49,464 bases of DNA from positions 1 to 49,464 of the IMG/VR virus record IMGVR_UViG_3300001683_001646; one strand, written 5' to 3'. Positions 9,923 to 48,881 of the stretch are shown here, piece by piece. Made by a program: the position numbers and the translations under genes. Source of the stretch: a virus. The notes under the pieces are model-generated. The model worked only from the letters and a program-made list of their open reading frames with translations. It was not told where the DNA came from and did no database searches. Position 1 is the first letter of the stretch. Every line of letters begins with the position of its first letter.

Positions 9923-10447
9923 ATGTCATATTCAGCAAAAGTTATTGATCACTTTGACAACCCAAGAAATATGGGAAGCTTAGATAAGAATGACACTCAA
10001 GTTGGAACCGGTATCGTCGGAGCCCCCGCCTGTGGAGATGTAATGAAGCTACAACTTAAGATTAATGAAAAGGGTATAATTGAAGAAGCTAAGTGGAAAA
10101 CTTTTGGATGTGGGTCTGCTATAGCTTCTAGCTCATTAATTACAACTTGGGTTAAGGGAAAGACGTTAGAAGAAGCAGAAGTTATTAAAAATTCTGAAAT
10201 AGCACAAGAGCTTTCCCTCCCACCTGTTAAGATTCATTGTTCCGTTCTTGCAGAGGATGCGATCAAGGCTGCTATTAAGGATTATAGGAATAAAAATTTG
10301 GCAAAAAACAAAACTTTTGAAGATGACTGGAGTTGTACTAGTCAAGGAGAATTAATCGAATCAGGATATCTAGATCAATCAATCAAGGATTGTGAAGAAG
10401 AATACGAAGCAGAAATTGATCTTTACACGACATATGGCGGCGATTAA
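9923..10447 (+). CDS. iscU: IscU/NifU-like iron-sulfur cluster scaffold
   Basis: A 174-residue scaffold on which iron-sulfur clusters are built before transfer to target proteins. The three cluster Cys and the assisting Asp are present at the same numbering as in E. coli IscU: C37 and D39 (GAPACGDV), C63 (FGCGSAIASSS) and H105-C106 (KIHCSVLAEDAIK). It extends about 45 residues beyond the usual IscU end, with a Cys-containing, acidic tail of unknown role (WSCTSQGEL, then KDCEEEYEAEIDLYTTYGGD). The next gene encodes IscA. No cysteine desulfurase is seen, so sulfur would have to come from the host IscS. Confidence 0.92.
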   Translation: MSYSAKVIDHFDNPRNMGSLDKNDTQVGTGIVGAPACGDVMKLQLKINEKGIIEEAKWKTFGCGSAIASSSLITTWVKGKTLEEAEVIKNSEIAQELSLPPVKIHCSVLAEDAIKAAIKDYRNKNLAKNKTFEDDWSCTSQGELIESGYLDQSIKDCEEEYEAEIDLYTTYGGD

Positions 10448-10797: not shown

Positions 10798-11400
10798 ATG
10801 AATTGGACAAGTAGAGTCTCGCCCCTTTTAAAGGAAGTAGAGCTTCGAAAGAATCCCGTAATGGTTAGAGTAAATAAATTTGATGAAAAGTCTGCTAAAG
10901 AATTTCAAGAGCAAGTAGCTTTAGCACATAATACAGGACAAAAAGTCATCCCTGTTATCATTGATTCGTATGGTGGCCAGGTTTATAGTTTAATGGCTAT
11001 GATAAGCGCCATAAAACATTCAGAATTACCGATAGCCACCATCGTTGAAGGCAAAGCTATGTCTTGTGGTGCCATACTTTTTTCTTTTGGAGAAGAAGGG
11101 CTCAGATTTATGGACCCGGATGCAACATTAATGATCCATGATGTTTCATCGATGAACTGGGGAAAGAACGAAGAGGTTCAAGCATCCGCAGAGGAAACCG
11201 CGAGACTTAATAGTAAAATCTACACAATGATGGCACGAAATTGTGGAAAGAAAGATGACTATTTTCTTAAAGTTGTGCACAAGAAGGGCCATGCCGATTG
11301 GTTCCTAGATGCTGAAGAAGCAAAGAAGCACAAAATAGCAAATCAGCTAAGAGTTCCTAAACTTTCCATTTCAGTTGATGTTAATATAGATCTGGAGTAA
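10798..11400 (+). CDS. ClpP-like serine protease
   Basis: A 200-residue peptidase of the ClpP/crotonase fold. The catalytic triad can be placed: Ser89 in GKAMSCGA, His114 in LMIHDVSS, and Asp167 in HADWFLDAEEAKKHKI. IDSYGGQVY at 56-63 is the oxyanion Gly-Gly loop. Family members are host ClpP-type degradative proteases or, in many phages, head maturation proteases. No ClpX is seen. Given the many proteins here with a possible cleavable head-targeting tag, a role as prohead protease is an option, although its location beside metabolic genes fits a regulatory protease equally well. Confidence 0.85.
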   Translation: MNWTSRVSPLLKEVELRKNPVMVRVNKFDEKSAKEFQEQVALAHNTGQKVIPVIIDSYGGQVYSLMAMISAIKHSELPIATIVEGKAMSCGAILFSFGEEGLRFMDPDATLMIHDVSSMNWGKNEEVQASAEETARLNSKIYTMMARNCGKKDDYFLKVVHKKGHADWFLDAEEAKKHKIANQLRVPKLSISVDVNIDLE

Positions 11401-26051: not shown

Positions 26052-26855
26052 ATTCCTGAAGGACCAGAAGTAAGAAGATATGCTATTGATCTTGCAAAAA
26101 GGCTCACCGGAAGAGATTTACTAGAAGTATCAATCAAGTCTGGGCGCTATCTTAAAAAAGTGCCAGTAGAATTTGAAAGATTCTCTAATGACTTACCTAT
26201 GCATATTTTAGGCGCAGGCTCTCATGGAAAGTTTCTATACATTCTCTTAGAATATCAAAATTCAATTTGGTCAACACTGGGAATGACCGGGCAGTGGTCA
26301 AATCAAAAAGGACAACATTCAAGAGTTGAATTTATTTTAAATGATGGTTCTGTATTTTATAATGATATTAGAAATTTTGGAACATTAAAATTTGTCAAAG
26401 GAAAGGAAACTTTAATTAAAAAATTGCAATCTCTCGGGCCCGACTTGTTAAGCGAAGTGTGCTCAAATGATACATTTATTGCTAGACTACGTACCCAAAA
26501 TAAGAAAACGATAGTACAGGCACTTATGGATCAATCAGTTGTAGCAGGAGTGGGCAACTATATCAAAGCAGATGCCTTGTGGTTATCTAAGCTTTCTCCA
26601 CATAGAATTGTTTCAGGTGTCTCTGATAAAGATTTAATAATTTTAAATGGTAATATTAGAAAAATAATGGTTGAAAGCTTTCAGTCTGGTGGCACCACAA
26701 TTCAATCTTACTCTGATTTTAATGGAGCCCCTGGTGAATACGGATCTAAGTTTATTGTGTATAATAAAAAAGTTGACCCAGATGGAAATCCCATATTATC
26801 TGAACAAACTAAAGATGGACGCACCACATGGTGGTCGCCTAAAAGACAATCGTAG
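26052..26855 (+). CDS. Fpg/Nei DNA glycosylase with zincless finger, probable ATT start
   Basis: A 267-residue base-excision repair enzyme that removes oxidised bases and nicks the site. The family needs Pro as its first residue after Met removal, followed by Glu. The only frame gives PEGPEVRR right after an ATT codon at 26052, which is 4 nt behind GAGGTG (26042-26047). No ATG or GTG is available; an in-frame TTG at 26031 would bury the catalytic Pro under seven extra residues. The Lys of GSHGKFLYI (K60), the H2TH segment (DQSVVAGVGNYIKADALW) and a finger ending GRTTWWSPKRQ are present. The four zinc Cys are absent, as in NEIL1/plant-type zincless fingers. Confidence 0.85.
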   Translation: MPEGPEVRRYAIDLAKRLTGRDLLEVSIKSGRYLKKVPVEFERFSNDLPMHILGAGSHGKFLYILLEYQNSIWSTLGMTGQWSNQKGQHSRVEFILNDGSVFYNDIRNFGTLKFVKGKETLIKKLQSLGPDLLSEVCSNDTFIARLRTQNKKTIVQALMDQSVVAGVGNYIKADALWLSKLSPHRIVSGVSDKDLIILNGNIRKIMVESFQSGGTTIQSYSDFNGAPGEYGSKFIVYNKKVDPDGNPILSEQTKDGRTTWWSPKRQS

Positions 26856-26864
26856 GAGGAAAAA

Positions 26865-27227
26865 ATGTCTGATATAAAGTTTTTTAAATTAAGTGATGCT
26901 TCAATAGGATTAATTGCAAAAACATTACAAGTAGCAATGTTAACTGGAACTGATGTTGTTGATAATTTGAGAATGATCTGTTTTGAAGTAAATGATGCAG
27001 ATGCGCTAGATCCAACTCTAGAGTATTTAGAAAATTTTGATAAGAATCTAGACACACTAATGGACCAGGCTGTAGAAACAATGCCCACATATGAGCAGAT
27101 ATTCACTGAAGAGATGGAAAAGATCGAGCTTAAGGAAGTAATGACTGACGATGCCGATGATGCTGACGAAGCAGATATTTGGAATGATCCCATTACTAGG
27201 GGCGAAGTGGACGTAGAGGACTGGTAG
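26865..27227 (+). CDS. Unknown acidic protein
   Basis: A 120-residue acidic protein behind TAGGAGG. The N-terminal half (FFKLSDASIGLIAKTLQVAMLTGTDVVDNLRMI) looks like a small helical domain. The C-terminal third is rich in Asp/Glu (DDADDADEADIW). No family is recognised. It lies between the glycosylase and the MazG-like gene, both with gaps under 10 nt. Confidence 0.55.
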   Translation: MSDIKFFKLSDASIGLIAKTLQVAMLTGTDVVDNLRMICFEVNDADALDPTLEYLENFDKNLDTLMDQAVETMPTYEQIFTEEMEKIELKEVMTDDADDADEADIWNDPITRGEVDVEDW

Positions 27228-35261: not shown

Positions 35262-38200
35262 ATGTTGATAAAGCCCAAGCGGTTCGTCGGTCTACACGCA
35301 CACACAGGATTTTCAGTTTTTGATGGCTTGGGATACCCAGCTGATCACATTGATTTCGTGCTAGAAAACGGTATGGATGCCTGGGCGCTGACTGATCACG
35401 GTAACGGCTCCGGCCTGGCTCATGCTCGAAAGCACGCTGTGAAGATGCAGCAAGACGGCCGGAAGTTTCGACAACTATATGGATGTGAATTCTATTTTGT
35501 CCCGTCTCTTTCTGGCTGGCGCAATGACTATGAAGCTCATCGGCAAGCCGTGAGAGATGCCAAGACTGAAAAGAAATCTCTTGAGAGGACAGACATCGAT
35601 GCAGATGAGGACGTAGTTGCCTCGGGCCACACAATTGAAGATGAGGATGAGACGAAGACCATTGACGTCATGAAGGACGAGTGGAAGCGTCGATATCACT
35701 TGGTGATTGTTGCAAAGAATAGAACCGGTTTGAGTAATCTTTTTACTCTCATCAAGAAGGGATACAAGCACGGATTTTATCGATTCCCACGAATTGACTT
35801 CGAGATGCTAGCTCAGCACGGCGAGGGGCTAGTAGTTTCTACAGCATGCCTCGGTGGGATCTACTCTAACCGAATTCTTCGTGGAGAAGCACTGAATAAG
35901 CCACACGATGAGATTCAACGTGAACTTCAAAATTTGACTGATAGGTTCACACACTGTGTAGGCAATGACAACTTCTTTCTTGAGCTCCAGTTTAATCGTT
36001 TGGATGCGCAGCACAAGGTGAATAAGCACCTTCTTTCTTTGCATAGTTCCACTGGCATCCCGCTTATCGCAACAGCTGACTCTCACTATTACGGCCCAGA
36101 TAAATGGGAAGCTAGAGAGCTATATAAGCGCCTTGGTTGGATGGGCAAGAATCCCTCTCCGCTGCCCGAATTTGACGAACTCAAGTGTGAGCTTTATCCT
36201 AAGAATGCATCTCAGATGTGGGATGAGTACATGCTTCACAGGGATAAGCATGAATTCTACGAAGGCACTGATCAGTTAGTTTGCGATGCAATTGAACGAA
36301 CTCATGACATTGCCTGGGAGATGTGTGAGGATACCTGGATTGACCAGTCGGTTAAGTTACCAAATTTTAACACGCCTGAACTCACAGCGTTTGATCAACT
36401 TCTTAAGCTTGTCAAGAAAGGCCTGATGGAAACAGGTCTTTATGAAAATCCCGTATACGTTGAACGTGCCAAAACTGAGATGGCAGACATCAAGTTTCTG
36501 GGCTTTGAGAATTATTTCCTGACAATGTATCAGGTCTTCCACAAGGCGTCTGACAGGACGCTCTTCGGTCCAGCTCGAGGATCTGGTGGAGGAAGCTTGG
36601 TGAACTATTTACTAGGGATTACCCAGCTTGATCCGCTACCTTACGGTCTCCTCTGGGATAGATTCCTTGGTCGTCACAGGACCTCTTGGCCCGACATCGA
36701 TTCCGACGCCGGCGATCGCGATGCGTTGATTGACGCAGCCCGCGAGCTCTACGGTGATGATGCTGTCATTCCTGTCTCTAACTTCAATACACTCAAGCTA
36801 AAATCTCTCGTCAAGGATATTTCTAAATTCTACGATGTGCCCTTCAATGAAGTAAATGCAGTAACCGGGCCCCTTCAAGACGATGTTATGCCCTGTGTTC
36901 GAGATGACAATACTGAAAAGTCTGTGTTCGTCCTTAAGCATGAGGATTGCATGAAGTATTCTAGGAAGTATAGCGCTTTCATGGAACAATATCCAAAGGT
37001 CAAGAATCACATTGAAGCACTCTTCATGCAGAATCGAAGCATCGGTCGGCACGCTGGAGGAGTAATTATCGCACCTGCTGAAGAACTTGAGAAATCCATG
37101 CCGCTCGTCGCAGTCCGCGGAGAGCTACAGACACCGTGGACTGAGGGTATGAACTTTAGAAATCTAGAAGATAATGGGTTCATCAAGTTTGATTTTTTAG
37201 GCCTTACTTTGCTCAAAGATGTCGAGAACTGCATTTGTAGAATTCTTAAGCAGCAGGGTAATGAAAATCCAACCTTCGATGAGATTAAAACATACTTTGA
37301 TGATCATCTAAACTGTCGGTTTAATGAACTCGACGACATCAAGGTCTGGAAGCATGTGTACCACAGGCGACGGAAGACCGGAGTGTTTCAATTCACTGCT
37401 GAAGGATCTCGTAAATTCTGTGAGAATGCTAAGCCCACAACGATTGAGGAGCTAGCTGCAATCACAGCTATCTATCGTCCCGGGCCTCTACGGGCAAATG
37501 TTCACAAGAAGTACGTTCGCGATAAGAAACGAGCCGCTGACATCGAGTATGATCATCCCATCATTAAAGAAATTCTTAGTTCCACCTTTGGGCACATCAC
37601 ATTTCAGGAACAGTTTATGCTTCTTGCTCAAAAACTTGCTGGGTTCACACCAGGTGAGTCAGATAAGATGAGAAAGACACTAGTGAAAAAGTCTCTTGAC
37701 ACAATTGGGAAAAAAGGAGCAGAGCGAGATGCATTGCGAAAGCAGTTCGTTAACGGCGCTGCAAATCTGACAGGACTACCAGAAGACAAGCTACACAAAC
37801 TCTTTGATAGGATTGAATACTTCAGTGTGTATGGTTTCAACAAGTCTCACGCAGTCGCTTACGCTATTGATTCTTACTACTCCGCGTGGCTGCATACGCA
37901 TCATGAAAAGACTTGGTTGGCAACAGTTCTTCAGTCTGAAAATAGCAGTCCAAAAGGACTCCAGAAGACAATTTCTGAAATTAAGCAGATGGGTTACAAG
38001 TTTGTACCCGCTGATATCAATTACTCTGGAGACGAGTGGACTTACTCTGAAGACCGAGCATCATTCGTTCCGCCTCTCACTTCTGTGAAAGGTGTAGGAG
38101 TAAATGCTGTTCAGGAGATTATGCTCCGTCGACCGTACAATAGTCTACACAACTTGCTGTACGACGAAGATGATATGTGGAAGCACTCGAAGATGAATAA

Positions 38201-38792
38201 GACATGCTTTTCTGCGCTATGTAAAATCGAAGCATTCAGTTCTCTTGAAGAATTAACTACCGGTGCAATTAGAAATCATAAACAAATGCATGATATCATC
38301 ATTGATAATTATGAAATACTCAGAAAGAGTGCATATGGTATGACAATGAGAAAAGCTCAAAAGTCTGGAGCACTACCAATTCTACCTAGTCTTATCAGAG
38401 ATACATCTGACATTGAAGACTGGTCTCGATCTGAGAAGCTCATGATGTATTATGACTTGACGGCAACAGTCCCAAGAGATCTCTTGTACCCCGACGGTGT
38501 TTTGGATAAAATCAAGAAGTCTGATATTCCACCGATGACAGGACTTTCAGGAAAGACGAGAGTTGTTGCTTGGCTGTGTATACAAGAAATTATTAAGAAG
38601 AAAACAAAAAAAGGCAAAACATTTTATAGGTTAAAAGTTTGTGACGATCATAATAATATGAGTTGGTTGCGAGTTTGGGGTTTCTTGCCATACGAAGCTG
38701 TACCATTTTCGATTTGGCTTGCTGATGTTCAAAATGATCCGGACTGGGGTGCCTCAACATCTGGATCGAAAATGAAGCCTCTGGTTCTATAA
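35262..38792 (+). CDS. dnaE: DNA polymerase III alpha subunit (DnaE type) with PHP domain
   Basis: A 1176-residue C-family replicative polymerase of full bacterial size. The N-terminal PHP domain keeps its metal ligands by eye: LHAHTGFS, LTDHGN, GCEFYF, YHLVIVAKN, STACLGG, ATADSHY. The polymerase core has ARGSGGGSL (about 438-446), PDIDSD with D478 and D480, KFDFLGL with D644, and YGFNKSHAVAYA near 856. Helix-hairpin-helix (LTSVKGVGVNAVQEI) and OB-type (TRVVAWL ... GKTFYRLKV) parts follow near the C-terminus. It is rare for a phage to carry this as well as a family A polymerase. The start overlaps nothing and has a good ribosome site. Confidence 0.93.
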   Translation: MLIKPKRFVGLHAHTGFSVFDGLGYPADHIDFVLENGMDAWALTDHGNGSGLAHARKHAVKMQQDGRKFRQLYGCEFYFVPSLSGWRNDYEAHRQAVRDAKTEKKSLERTDIDADEDVVASGHTIEDEDETKTIDVMKDEWKRRYHLVIVAKNRTGLSNLFTLIKKGYKHGFYRFPRIDFEMLAQHGEGLVVSTACLGGIYSNRILRGEALNKPHDEIQRELQNLTDRFTHCVGNDNFFLELQFNRLDAQHKVNKHLLSLHSSTGIPLIATADSHYYGPDKWEARELYKRLGWMGKNPSPLPEFDELKCELYPKNASQMWDEYMLHRDKHEFYEGTDQLVCDAIERTHDIAWEMCEDTWIDQSVKLPNFNTPELTAFDQLLKLVKKGLMETGLYENPVYVERAKTEMADIKFLGFENYFLTMYQVFHKASDRTLFGPARGSGGGSLVNYLLGITQLDPLPYGLLWDRFLGRHRTSWPDIDSDAGDRDALIDAARELYGDDAVIPVSNFNTLKLKSLVKDISKFYDVPFNEVNAVTGPLQDDVMPCVRDDNTEKSVFVLKHEDCMKYSRKYSAFMEQYPKVKNHIEALFMQNRSIGRHAGGVIIAPAEELEKSMPLVAVRGELQTPWTEGMNFRNLEDNGFIKFDFLGLTLLKDVENCICRILKQQGNENPTFDEIKTYFDDHLNCRFNELDDIKVWKHVYHRRRKTGVFQFTAEGSRKFCENAKPTTIEELAAITAIYRPGPLRANVHKKYVRDKKRAADIEYDHPIIKEILSSTFGHITFQEQFMLLAQKLAGFTPGESDKMRKTLVKKSLDTIGKKGAERDALRKQFVNGAANLTGLPEDKLHKLFDRIEYFSVYGFNKSHAVAYAIDSYYSAWLHTHHEKTWLATVLQSENSSPKGLQKTISEIKQMGYKFVPADINYSGDEWTYSEDRASFVPPLTSVKGVGVNAVQEIMLRRPYNSLHNLLYDEDDMWKHSKMNKTCFSALCKIEAFSSLEELTTGAIRNHKQMHDIIIDNYEILRKSAYGMTMRKAQKSGALPILPSLIRDTSDIEDWSRSEKLMMYYDLTATVPRDLLYPDGVLDKIKKSDIPPMTGLSGKTRVVAWLCIQEIIKKKTKKGKTFYRLKVCDDHNNMSWLRVWGFLPYEAVPFSIWLADVQNDPDWGASTSGSKMKPLVL

Positions 38793-44445: not shown

Positions 44446-47400
44446 ATGGCAACCAGCGCTCACCAGTTAAAAGATTTACTTTTTGAAGCGGATGAAGAAA
44501 CGTTAGCATCGCTAACAGAAGATGATTGGTCTAGAATTAATGCAGGTCTTTTGACTGAGGCTGAGCTAAATGAGTTGCTAGGATTCTCTAGAAAAAAGAC
44601 AATAATTAAAAAGATTTTAGAGTTGGACCCGCAGGAAGACAAAGATGAGCTCGCGGCTCTAAACAAATCTTCTCTTAAAAAAATGCTCAAAGCAAAACGC
44701 GAAGATGCCGGAGAGGATACTCGCGGTTTTTTTGCAAAGACTGTTGATAGAATTAAGGGTATTGGAGATATCGGAATGTTCTCTAATAAAGCGGGAACGC
44801 TTTTAGGCGGAACAGAGACATTTGATATTAAAAAGAGAAAAGCACTAAAGAGTAATGCTAAAGCCCAGGCAGAAAAATGGCTAAAGGCAATAGAATACCA
44901 GCCGCTCTCAGATCTTTATAGTGAGTTAGCAAAAGCAGAGTTTCCCAACAAGGCCAATAAGTCTGGTTTTAAGGCCGAAGCCCAGAAGTTTCAAAAGATC
45001 TATGACGATGTTGTATCTGCACACGAAGCAAAACAACTCGATACAAAGACAGCAAACACCATCATTGCAGTTCTCCGCGGAGTCGTAATTTACTTCCAAG
45101 ATTTTGCAATGAACGACAAGTATTACTATAAAGAGAATAAAGAGCAGTCTCTTGCCGACCTACTCTTTGAGGAAGTTGAAGAAGAGAAGGAAGAGAAGAT
45201 AGGCGCTGCTGAGGGTGATGTAGCTGCAAACTTTGAAGCAGCCTACGGAATGAAACTGCCGCTAGTTCTTATTAGCACCGGCGCCGGACTAATGGTTGCG
45301 GGATTTCTCGCTGATTCAGATCTTGTTTTGGGCATTATGGAGGGCATGAAGGATGTTACGGAAGTAAAAACGGCAGGTAAAGTTATAAAGTCTTCTCTAG
45401 AGACGTCCGTCCCTCTTGGGGATGTCAAACCAGGCGAAGGTATCATAAGAATCGTTCGACGTATGGTCCCTGGCGCAGAGTCATTCGGTCGCGCTGGCGG
45501 CCCATCGATGGGTGCTATTTTCGGTGGCGGAAAAAATGCTACAGTGTTGAAATTGGTCAAGGCATCAATGATGAATTCAGGCGGCCCTGCCGGTCTCGAC
45601 GGTCTCATTTCTAGTAATGCTGACCCCCTGTCAACATTTGTACAAGGTACAATGTCTGGGACAGGAAAATTGGTACCAGTGGATACAACCTTATACGGAG
45701 TGCACCCGGGAGAATTTCATGACTCAGTTGTGACAGAGATCACAGACAATATGCCAGACACGACGCAAATAATAGAAGATGATACTCTCCGCAACAAGGT
45801 TCTAAACGGCCTTGCAAAGTGGGGCGGCGCAAGCTTGAAAGGTCTCGGCCTCGGTTTCATCGGCGGCGGATTAGCATCTGCTTTCATGCGTTGGAAGGGT
45901 AAGGGCGGCGAGAAAGGTTCCGGAAAGATTCGAGGCTCTCGTATGTCGATCCTCAAGGTCATGGTTGACAAATTCAAGGATGTAGGCAAAAAGGACGAGA
46001 AAGAGGATCCGCCCGTTCCTCCCGTTCCTCCCGTCACCCCGGGTGAAAGTGACTTTGAAGTAAATGTCGAACTAGAGACGGGTGGCTTTAGGATTTCTGT
46101 GAAAAATAAGACAGCAGAAAAAGAAGAAGAAGAAGGCCCCGGCCTTGACGTTGAGAGTTTTGTACCCGACCTACCTCGTTTGGTAGAGTTGGGACTAACG
46201 ACTCCTAGTGCAGTCCAGCGACTTCTTTCAGAAGTGAGCGATTTTAACGGAGAATTTACCTTCAAGGGCGGCGGCCCATATCCAAAGGGCGAGGGTACAT
46301 ACGGCTCAACAGTAAAAGATCTCGAGATCTATACAACCATGGGCAAGCTTTTAAAAATACTGATCGATCGAGGACATACAGAACTTTCAGATCTGACGCA
46401 AGAAGAACTTGATGCTGCTATCCCAGCTGGCAACTTTACATTGAAAGACCTGAGAAAAGAAAAAGAAGAGCCGCCTCCAGGAGAAGAAAAGATTAGTTAC
46501 GACGTCGACCTCGAAGATGATGAGACAAGATTTGTGGCGAAGACTAAGGACGGTGAAGAGGACGCGTTTACAAAGACCCCGGGCTACACCTATGACGAGG
46601 TACCAAAGGATCCGTCCACAGCATCATCTCAGCCAACGTTAGCTGATATTTTTAGAGCTGAACTTGATAATCTTCCCACACCACCTGATGCAGACGCATT
46701 TATGATTTCTGCTGAGGACGAGGAAAATCCTGATACTGAATATAGTGTTGATGACAATAGAAAAGAGGAGGAGGAGCCTGTTGCACAGCGACCTCGCCTC
46801 GGCCTGGTTCGCATGGACGACGACGGCCTCAAGGTTTCTAGAACATCAGATCGTTACGGTGATAAGAGATATGCTGCTGCAAAGACCGCATTTCAAGCTG
46901 CACAGGATCAAGGTATTACAGGCCGAGACACCAGCCCATCAACAGATGATATTGGTGATGACTATGGGATAAAAGCCCGCGGCAGATCAGAACCGCATCA
47001 ACTAACATACAAGCAGATGGTGGGTAAGGGACGAGCAGGCTTAGCAAAGAACTTGAAGCCGGGGGTGGAAGTCGAACCCTATTTTACTCTTGATAAGTCG
47101 GCGCACAGCGATCTATACTTAAAGAAGCGTAAGACAATGAATGTTAAGGGTATGGGCAAGATTGAAAAGCCCATGCTAGGTACGAGCCAAAAAGCACGAT
47201 CTGAAAAGGTGCTGAAGTTGATCATGAAGAAGTTCGTGGCAGGCAAGAAAAAGTTAACTCAGGTGCAGGCAAATAAAATCGTTAGCAACTATTGGGGTGA
47301 TAAGCGCAAGAAGCATGCAGTTGACAAGACCCAGCGGGATAAGATCGTACAGGTTCTTGTTGCGTATGGTCTTGTAAGCGAGTCAGTTGATCAAGGTGAC

Positions 47401-47484
47401 AATCTACTCACTGAATCTGTAACTCGTGCAGAACAAACGTTTGACCGCTGGTCAGCGCTTGCTGGCATAGGAGATAATAAGTGA
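44446..47484 (+). CDS. Large probable internal virion protein with N-terminal tag
   Basis: A 1012-residue protein. The N-terminus (SAHQLKDLLFEADEE) is the shared amphipathic tag with LFE-A. Further (L/I)-x-E-(A/S) sites occur at GLLTEAEL (about 35) and near the C-terminus (NLLTESVT). Two Gly-rich hydrophobic segments lie at about 270-297 (LPLVLISTGAGLMVAGFLA) and 466-480 (GLGLGFIGGGLASAF). A Pro-rich linker (VPPVPPVTPGE) near 525 and long acidic regions follow, then a basic helical C-terminal domain (about 860-985). It looks like an ejected or core head protein that could interact with membrane. No enzyme motif is seen. Confidence 0.65.
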   Translation: MATSAHQLKDLLFEADEETLASLTEDDWSRINAGLLTEAELNELLGFSRKKTIIKKILELDPQEDKDELAALNKSSLKKMLKAKREDAGEDTRGFFAKTVDRIKGIGDIGMFSNKAGTLLGGTETFDIKKRKALKSNAKAQAEKWLKAIEYQPLSDLYSELAKAEFPNKANKSGFKAEAQKFQKIYDDVVSAHEAKQLDTKTANTIIAVLRGVVIYFQDFAMNDKYYYKENKEQSLADLLFEEVEEEKEEKIGAAEGDVAANFEAAYGMKLPLVLISTGAGLMVAGFLADSDLVLGIMEGMKDVTEVKTAGKVIKSSLETSVPLGDVKPGEGIIRIVRRMVPGAESFGRAGGPSMGAIFGGGKNATVLKLVKASMMNSGGPAGLDGLISSNADPLSTFVQGTMSGTGKLVPVDTTLYGVHPGEFHDSVVTEITDNMPDTTQIIEDDTLRNKVLNGLAKWGGASLKGLGLGFIGGGLASAFMRWKGKGGEKGSGKIRGSRMSILKVMVDKFKDVGKKDEKEDPPVPPVPPVTPGESDFEVNVELETGGFRISVKNKTAEKEEEEGPGLDVESFVPDLPRLVELGLTTPSAVQRLLSEVSDFNGEFTFKGGGPYPKGEGTYGSTVKDLEIYTTMGKLLKILIDRGHTELSDLTQEELDAAIPAGNFTLKDLRKEKEEPPPGEEKISYDVDLEDDETRFVAKTKDGEEDAFTKTPGYTYDEVPKDPSTASSQPTLADIFRAELDNLPTPPDADAFMISAEDEENPDTEYSVDDNRKEEEEPVAQRPRLGLVRMDDDGLKVSRTSDRYGDKRYAAAKTAFQAAQDQGITGRDTSPSTDDIGDDYGIKARGRSEPHQLTYKQMVGKGRAGLAKNLKPGVEVEPYFTLDKSAHSDLYLKKRKTMNVKGMGKIEKPMLGTSQKARSEKVLKLIMKKFVAGKKKLTQVQANKIVSNYWGDKRKKHAVDKTQRDKIVQVLVAYGLVSESVDQGDNLLTESVTRAEQTFDRWSALAGIGDNK

Positions 47485-47837
47485 GAGTATCAGAAAAACA
47501 ACTTATTCGGATGATGCGCGAAGAGTATAAAGCACATCTTGAAAGTGTAATCAAAGAGCTTTCTGAAAAGCCAGCTGACGAAATGCAGCCGAGCCAGGAT
47601 GTCGAAGATCCTGGTGACACCAAGAAAGATGAAAAGCCTAAGGACAAAGAGCCTCGCGTAAAATACGACAAGCTTTCAATTGATACGAGGGTGACTCACA
47701 TGCCTTCTGGCGGCCCCCGCGGGTTTGAGTATACCGTAGTATCTATCGGTCCTGACACTGCGTCTCTTGTTGCAGGAGACGGTGAAAGGTTAGAAGTTGA
47801 CAAACAAGAACTTGAAAAAGATTATGTGGTGGACTAA
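47481..47837 (+). CDS. Small protein with N-terminal amphipathic tag
   Basis: A 118-residue protein starting at GTG 47481, which overlaps the previous stop codon. The tag is RVSEKQLIRMMREEY, followed by a second helix (HLESVIKELSEK). A charged Pro/Lys/Asp linker (40-65) precedes a small beta-rich domain (FEYTVVSIGPDTASLVAGDGERLEV) that looks like an SH3-like fold. Function is unknown. It is one of four consecutive small tagged genes. Confidence 0.65.
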   Translation: MRVSEKQLIRMMREEYKAHLESVIKELSEKPADEMQPSQDVEDPGDTKKDEKPKDKEPRVKYDKLSIDTRVTHMPSGGPRGFEYTVVSIGPDTASLVAGDGERLEVDKQELEKDYVVD

Positions 47838-48521
47838 ATGATTACAAAGAAAGAAGTAAAGGGCGTGATAAGAGATGCACTCGGTTTCGAAGAAGAGACA
47901 GTTTCTGAGTCGTTAGTTCTCCAAAAGAAGAAGTTCGATATACCTACGGAATTATTAACGCCCAAGAATAAGAAAGCACACGAAGGTCTATACGAGAAGT
48001 ATGTACAGACATTTAATCGTGTAAGTGCAGAATTAGACGCTGCGAGTAGAGAAGATGCAGATCTTAATTACTCGAACTTTAGATGTCTCAAGCTCGATGA
48101 AACGTATAACATGAATGCTGTTTATCTACATGAGCTTTATTTTAATAATATAGGTGACACCCAGAGCGAGATCTCAATGAACACGCTTTCTTTCATGCGC
48201 CTCGAGAGGGACTTCGGGACATTTGACTCATGGCAGGAAGACTTTATTGCCTGCGCAAAATCAGCTAGGAATGGCTGGGTAGTGACAGGTTATAATACAT
48301 ACACACAACGATACATGAACGCAGTTATTGATTTACACAGCGGCAATGTTCCCATGGGATTTTATCCAGTCATCGTTTTAGATGTGTGGGAACATGCTTA
48401 TTATCGCGACTATCTTTCTAAGCGCAAGTCTTATGTCTTCGCAATGATGAAGGAGCTTAATTGGGGTGTGATAGATGATAGATTTAAACGAGCCGAGCAG
48501 ATTGCTAAGGCACTTAAGTAA
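47838..48521 (+). CDS. Fe/Mn superoxide dismutase-like protein with N-terminal tag
   Basis: A 227-residue protein. Residues 1-25 are the tag (TKKEVKGVIRDAL). The rest follows the Fe/Mn-SOD layout. The first metal His is H48 in KAHEGLYEKYVQTFN (compare H-x8-YV-x3-N), the second is H98 in YLHELYFNN (compare NHTFYWN), and the third and fourth ligands are D182 and H186 in LDVWEHAYYRDYLSKR, the most diagnostic stretch of the family. NGWVVTGY matches the G-W segment before it. All four ligands are present, so it may dismutate superoxide. The loop between them is altered, so activity is not certain. It ends in a short basic helix. Confidence 0.82.
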   Translation: MITKKEVKGVIRDALGFEEETVSESLVLQKKKFDIPTELLTPKNKKAHEGLYEKYVQTFNRVSAELDAASREDADLNYSNFRCLKLDETYNMNAVYLHELYFNNIGDTQSEISMNTLSFMRLERDFGTFDSWQEDFIACAKSARNGWVVTGYNTYTQRYMNAVIDLHSGNVPMGFYPVIVLDVWEHAYYRDYLSKRKSYVFAMMKELNWGVIDDRFKRAEQIAKALK

Positions 48522-48533
48522 GGAACCAATACA

Positions 48534-48881
48534 ATGGCAAAGAAAATTTCAGAGTCTAAGATCAGGTCGATTGTTAGAAGACAACTCCAACTCAAGAAGT
48601 TGAATGAGCTACACAGTACTGTTGTAAATGAAGATGAGAAAAGAATGAACGTGTCTCAAGCAGCTGCCAAGGCAGAACTTAAAGTAGGCGGATCTATTCA
48701 AACAAAGATGGCTAAGCTTAAAGGTCTTCCTCGAGCATGGCTTATGAATGCTTTACCTCACATAATCGATGGTCTGGCCAACAAAGACATTAATAAACAA
48801 AGATTTGAGATGGCACTTGCCAAAATGAACATTGACAAGTCAGTGATCGTAACCCAGGCAGCTGAGGAAGAAGTCGAATAA
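48534..48881 (+). CDS. Small basic helical protein with N-terminal tag
   Basis: A 115-residue protein beginning KKISESKIRSIVRRQLQL, a more basic version of the shared tag. The remainder is helical (AAAKAELKVGGSIQTKMAKL, RAWLMNALPHIIDGLA) and ends acidic. No family is recognised. It lies 12 nt after the SOD-like gene, and its stop overlaps the next start by one base (TAATG). Confidence 0.62.
   Translation: MAKKISESKIRSIVRRQLQLKKLNELHSTVVNEDEKRMNVSQAAAKAELKVGGSIQTKMAKLKGLPRAWLMNALPHIIDGLANKDINKQRFEMALAKMNIDKSVIVTQAAEEEVE

Follow-up and report, generated by a model that had tools for sequence, protein, structure and literature searches.

What does a phage do with a superoxide dismutase (SOD) that carries extra residues in front of its enzyme domain? 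The gene that raises this question lies near the end of an IMG/VR viral record (IMGVR_UViG_3300001683_001646; G000), a 49-kb fragment of 49,464 nucleotides that is referred to as the window. A sequence-only reading of the window had described the product as an SOD-like protein with a tagged N-terminal extension, and had suggested that, if packaged, the particle would deliver it as an antioxidant or keep it for protection of the packaged DNA. Is the protein an enzyme of the infected cell, a component of the phage head, or both? The features of the locus are collected in Table 1.

Table 1. Features of the SOD locus and its neighbours, with positions in the window unless another contig is named
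Feature	Position	Strand	Basis
Tagged Fe/Mn-SOD gene	47838..48521	+	ORF, 227 aa plus stop; Pfam and PDB matches
Tag: N-terminal helix, residues 1-15 (MITKKEVKGVIRDAL), capsid-targeting-like	47838..47882	+	AlphaFold2 helix 4-15; similar helix in relatives; like N-termini on about 20 proteins of G001, the nearest relative
Predicted prohead-protease site V22-S-E24/S25 (VSE|S)	47901..47912	+	Glu in 111/111 listed relatives; gp21-type protease and gp23 LRE in relatives
Predicted mature SOD-fold protein, residues 25-227	47910..48518	+	AlphaFold2 and Foldseek; begins about where cellular SODs begin
Metal ligand H48	47979..47981	+	Alignment, codon verified; missing in 15/111 listed relatives
Metal ligand H98	48129..48131	+	Alignment, codon verified
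C-terminal His H167, water-coordinating, SodFM3/4 type	48336..48338	+	Conservation and PMC10172142
D182-V-W-E185-H186: two metal ligands and dimer-bridge Glu	48381..48395	+	Alignment, codons verified
Upstream small gene F26, N-terminal helix resembling the tag; slot taken by F7 or F29 elsewhere	47481..47837	+	Synteny
Downstream small tagged gene, 115 aa	48534..48881	+	Similar tagged gene at the same place in G001
Downstream tagged gene F1, truncated by the contig end	48881..49462	+	F1 in at least 37 loci, beside or near SOD
Large protein, 1012 aa; C-terminal RWxxLAG[LI] as in gp22-like scaffold	44446..47484	+	C-terminal comparison
RWxxLAG[LI]-type ending	C-terminus of 44446-47484; G001 203317-204873, 26345-26911; L021, L025, L027, L029, L031, L032, L034-L037, L039, L041, L048		

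The window gene encodes a SodFM4-like SOD

The SOD-like protein proved to be a real product of 227 residues. It matches Pfam Sod_Fe_C at 5.2e-19, with Sod_Fe_N below its cut-off, and its top PDB match by sequence is the FeSOD of Aquifex pyrophilus (1coj, 2.3e-31). The AlphaFold2 model, computed from an alignment of 41 relatives, has a pLDDT of 90 and is composed of a helix (residues 4-15), a linker of low confidence, and a complete SOD fold from residue 42. The best PDB match of the model in Foldseek is again 1coj (TM 0.80/0.86), and all of the top 50 matches are SODs. Structure prediction was the check that the sequence-only reading had proposed, with a model devoid of the SOD metal pocket as grounds against it; the metal pocket was assessed by alignment and fold, and at the fold level the model is that of an SOD.

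The alignment places the four Fe/Mn-SOD ligands named earlier, H48, H98, D182, and H186, at the ligand positions of known SODs, and each codon was verified in the window. The position of H167 is His in 27 of 27 cellular rows of the alignment and in 79 of 81 ligand-intact relatives. A C-terminal water-coordinating His is typical of SodFM3/4 enzymes, a Val two residues ahead of the Asp ligand is usual in Fe-preferring SODs, and the SodFM4 subfamily misses the final His of the HXXXHH motif (PMC10172142). The window protein has V180 two residues ahead of its Asp ligand, and of the SodFM4 marks it has H167 and the sequence HEGLYEKY where HXXXHH is expected. Compared with the Aquifex SOD, helix 1 is shorter by one residue, and a misplaced register of H48 was considered for this reason. 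It was ruled out by the HxxLYxxYV spacing, which occurs equally in tagless cellular SODs of CPR and other bacteria; the register is acceptable because these SODs share the spacing and SodFM4 enzymes lack the last His of HXXXHH. As the metal site is intact, the window phage would most likely make a working Fe-preferring SOD.

Compared with SodFM4/SodFM3 enzymes (the Aquifex FeSOD 1coj, and SODs of CPR and deltaproteobacteria), the phage protein shares the fold, the four ligands, the C-terminal His, the Val before the Asp ligand, and the missing last His of HXXXHH. It differs from them by the N-terminal propeptide and by a Trp in place of the Tyr/Phe before the bridge Glu, and its clade differs further in containing 38 relatives with Gln for the bridge Glu as well as members that have lost ligands.

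Relatives are found on uncultured viral contigs

The viral collection was scanned in two follow-up rounds with peptide patterns from the middle and the end of the SOD. As the queries contained neither the tag nor the ligands, conservation of the tag and of either site among the matches was not selected for. The relatives number at least 111 distinct sequences, taken as the best loci by similarity to the query (up to 80 per scan), and all counts given here are minimum counts. Nearly all of them originate from uncultured viral contigs; the start of each ORF was set by simple rules. Judged from gene content and sample types, the phages with a tagged SOD appear to be mostly marine. Among isolate phages, the search gave a single weak SOD match, on a 4-kb faecal contig.

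The window is a metagenomic fragment, and this is all that can be said for a spurious ORF, a misassembly, or a cellular contig. One scan alone matched 196 relatives on independent viral contigs, synteny is conserved among them, the larger contigs carry gp23 and gp21, and the family is under purifying selection, all of which makes an artefact extremely improbable.

The tag is absent from the cellular SODs compared (0 of 26 loci). Two tagged SODs come from genomes designated as cellular. The first (L079; NHDW01000006.1), assigned to Methylococcaceae bacterium TMED69, is 58% identical to the SOD of the window. We rejected it as a cellular tagged SOD; it probably lies on a phage contig that was binned with the MAG, because the contigs of the same MAG include a gp23 gene. 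The second is L080, and no gp23 was seen in its genome.

The N-terminal extension ends at an invariant Glu

The extension that had been described as tagged is real. It comprises 24 residues before the SOD domain, is predicted to form a helix and a linker, and ends with VSE|S, a member of the conserved LxE|A/S type. The consensus of the T4 prohead protease (gp21) is LxE|A/S/G. An aligned Glu terminates the extension in 111 of the 111 listed distinct viral relatives, including all 17 that have lost metal ligands, and the pattern [LIV]xE[ASGN] occurs near the N-terminus of 110. In the 90 listed relatives used for these measurements, the propeptide is 21 to 61 residues long, and no other position within the first 30 residues is invariant. 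The cut-site Glu is hence better conserved than any of the metal ligands.

The number of LxE motifs was set aside as a proof of processing in its own right, because the motif occurs at about 50% in certain families that are unrelated; in the epimerase family F10, for example, which is untagged, 13 of 25 members have it within the first 60 residues. Some members of the tagged neighbour families F1 and F7 have no cut site. In the adjacent metabolic families F2 and F3, the cut site was found in 0 of 33 and 0 of 32 members, respectively. From the extension as a whole we infer a propeptide that targets the head.

The gene might instead be an ordinary auxiliary metabolic gene, with an SOD that acts in the infected cell and an extension unrelated to the head. 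Fe/Mn-SOD is listed, together with nifU, among the auxiliary metabolic genes of Microcystis viruses (PMC12542629); all four ligands are intact in 94 of the 111 listed relatives, and nucleotide-metabolism genes lie near the SOD gene. This reading is weakened by a cut-site Glu that is better conserved than the catalytic residues, and also by the persistence of members without a full metal site. It would leave unexplained why the cut site is missing from the metabolic families F2 and F3 next to the SOD, and why other proteins of these phages have tag-like N-termini, one of them encoded beside the protease and capsid genes. We regard it as unlikely.

Relatives have the protease and capsid of T4-type phages

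Neither gp21 nor gp23 was identified within the 49-kb window fragment. A gp21-type prohead protease (PF03420) is encoded by 11 of 16 contigs of relatives and a gp23-type major capsid protein (PF07068) likewise by 11 of 16, with the nearest relative G001 included in both cases. The nearest relatives of this gp23 are from an uncultured phage, Microcystis phage Mel-JY01, and Flavobacterium phage immuto, with identities of 35-46%. The gp23 propeptide is closed by an invariant LRE in 13 of 13 sequences, close to where T4 gp23 is known to be cut. At the sequence level, this LRE provides a control, from within these phages, for the cleavage rule proposed for the SOD.

In G001, 20 of 255 coding-strand ORFs start with a tag-like N-terminus, versus 16 of 1495 internal windows that resemble the tag (ca. 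1%; Fisher p = 8e-9), and LxE[ASGN] follows the tag-like N-terminus in 11 of these 20 versus 54 of the 235 other proteins (p = 0.005), both p-values being optimistic because the tag pattern was drawn up after example tags had been seen. One tagged protein of G001 is encoded next to the genes for protease, scaffold, and capsid. At 76755-80845 of G001 (L070), small genes in a run encode proteins with near-identical N-terminal tags (MKIKKSQLRRIIQEE and variants), and two of them (76755-77540 and 77557-78627) contain a second, internal copy of the tag. Six proteins of this run were searched for enzyme domains, and no convincing Pfam match was found.

The idea of packaging is strongly, if indirectly, supported by the invariant protease-type site, by the gp21-type protease and gp23 of the relatives, and by an SOD domain that starts right after the site. 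The protein is thus probably one of the internal proteins in the head of a T4-superfamily phage, composed of a capsid-targeting propeptide and a SodFM4-like SOD and processed by a gp21-type protease. A bacterial SodFM4-like SOD would have gained the propeptide in front of it. During prohead assembly, the N-terminal helix would dock the protein into the core, and the protease would cut after Glu24. The mature residues 25-227 would be retained in the head and, if T4 IP and Alt are a guide, probably enter the cell together with the DNA.

Several lineages have lost the metal site

All four ligands are kept in 94 of the 111 listed relatives, and one to four are lost in the other 17, in which HHDH is replaced by RRDG, LREG, QRDG, NSSR, NTSR, NTCS, QFSE, HNDN, or HHDT. 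In a tree composed of the viral relatives and nearby cellular SODs, the viral SODs form one branch with respect to the sampled cellular SODs (99-100% SH-aLRT), and the ligand-loss members are nested inside it. Parsimony on a tree built without the ligand columns gives four changes, two of which are forced by strongly supported branches. The ligand-loss loci examined have the same neighbour genes, and the model of L037, which has no ligand left, still matches 1coj best. L041 and L048, the sole pair with measurable dS, give a dN/dS of 0.018, and the other ligand-loss pairs have low dN with saturated dS. Open frames, the same synteny, and these values rule out that the dead forms are decaying pseudogenes. 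No spare active SOD was found in phages with a dead form, each of the contigs checked having a single SOD. Six residues, E24, T37, D107, S110, R124, and M203, are fixed in the viral clade and not in cellular SODs, and are retained in the dead forms.

The dead relatives show that dismutation is not the only predicted role that the family conserves. A second, non-catalytic role would also have to be under selection, since the metal site disappeared from several lineages in which everything else was retained; this role could be structural, DNA-associated, or binding. Poxvirus SOD-like proteins and mitoribosomal SOD-fold proteins are catalytically dead as well, having kept the SOD fold after loss of the metal site. 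The phage clade is unlike them in that live and dead forms occur at one locus.

Would the SOD fold then be a purely structural head or core protein in the whole family, with catalysis irrelevant even in the window phage? The 17 relatives without full ligands keep the tag and, where examined, the fold and synteny. They also keep D107, S110, R124, and M203, clade-specific residues that lie outside the ligands, and the dimer-bridge Glu, present in 27 of 27 cellular rows, is Gln in 38 of the 94 ligand-intact members. However, most lineages retain the whole metal site across a deep divergence, the ligand-intact relatives being down to about 45-50% identical, and the outer-sphere His is likewise kept in 79 of the 81 checked. 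Neutral drift would not maintain either of them, so a purely structural role is the weaker reading, and we consider it improbable.

The preferred reading is therefore a processed head protein with an SOD domain, and probably one that is not only an antioxidant, because the cut site is present in every relative while several lineages lost metal residues. Delivery of an antioxidant or protection of DNA, as suggested in the sequence-only reading, is plausible for the window phage with its intact ligands. It cannot account for the entire family, since the 17 listed relatives with lost ligands keep the tag, the cut site and, where examined, the fold and synteny. In a wider and more tentative version, which may or may not hold, a widespread group of T4-superfamily phages would package and eject a protease-processed SOD-fold protein that began as a delivered enzyme and repeatedly became a metal-free head or host-binding protein, with live and dead forms at the same locus.

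Comparison with known packaged proteins

According to two reports (PMC9958956, PMC7411985), the propeptides of T4 IP and Alt proteins bring them into the prohead, gp21 cuts, and the proteins are ejected with the DNA. T4 IPI-III and Alt resemble the phage SOD in the short N-terminal propeptide, the LxE-type cut site, and in belonging to phages whose prohead protease is of the gp21 type and whose capsid is of the gp23 type, as seen for the SOD in relatives of the window phage. The phage SOD is unlike them in that its cargo is an SOD fold of cellular origin, its tag sequence differs from the T4 CTS, and its packaging is predicted. The jumbo phages SPN3US and phiKZ have several head proteins that are cut after an xXE motif, and their ejection proteins resemble the phage SOD in carrying propeptides removed by the prohead protease after this motif; SPN3US differs in its AXE site and mostly long propeptides, and no SOD is described for it in the parts available (PMC5694885, PMC7411985).

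Chlorovirus PBCV-1 packages a Cu/Zn-SOD in its virion, and this enzyme is associated with a decrease in superoxide in the course of infection (PMC7019647). Both cases concern a virus-encoded SOD in the particle, packaged there and predicted to be so here. The PBCV-1 enzyme belongs to an unrelated enzyme family and an unrelated virus, and no targeting tag removed by a protease is described in the parts available. Within the open-licence literature, we found no earlier report of a phage SOD that is packaged or that has a capsid-targeting propeptide, and no virion proteomics, metal, or activity results for these uncultured phages.

Were the protein packaged in the head, these phages would supply the cell with a ready-made antioxidant enzyme as soon as infection starts. 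Such delivery by the particle is described for the algal virus, and none was found for phages in the open-licence literature. If true, it would call for a reinterpretation of phage "SOD auxiliary metabolic genes". The tag and the cut site would provide a simple sequence rule to predict which proteins are packaged in a large, uncultured group of phages, and the repeated loss of the metal site would be a natural experiment that splits the enzyme role from the second role.

Gene neighbourhood and other genes of the window

The gene order around the SOD is conserved across the loci of relatives. Three small tagged neighbours had been claimed, and all three have similar N-termini. Those starting at 47481 and 48881 have counterparts in most of the relatives' loci; for the one at 48534, a comparable tagged gene was observed in the nearest relative only. 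The family F1 gave no match in the isolate-phage collection.

The RWxxLAG[LI] C-terminus, or a close variant of it, is common to the gp22-like scaffold of G001, the 1012-residue protein of the window, and large proteins upstream of the SOD elsewhere, and it often follows an LxES-type site. LAG[LIM] lies within the last 16 residues of three G001 proteins versus about 0.5 expected. Such an ending may act as another signal for the core or head, located at the C-terminus.

Further genes of the window include a NifU-like Fe-S scaffold protein at 9923-10444 (phrog_8429, 8.8e-39) and a ClpP-like protein at 10798-11400, which matches PHROG head maturation proteases and ATP-dependent proteases; the relatives use a gp21-type S77 prohead protease that is separate from the ClpP-like protein. 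A phage DNA polymerase match (phrog_17) is located at 156-1379, in addition to a large polymerase-like ORF at 35262-38792 that has an N-terminal HAHT motif and by eye resembles a bacterial DnaE-type polymerase with a PHP domain.
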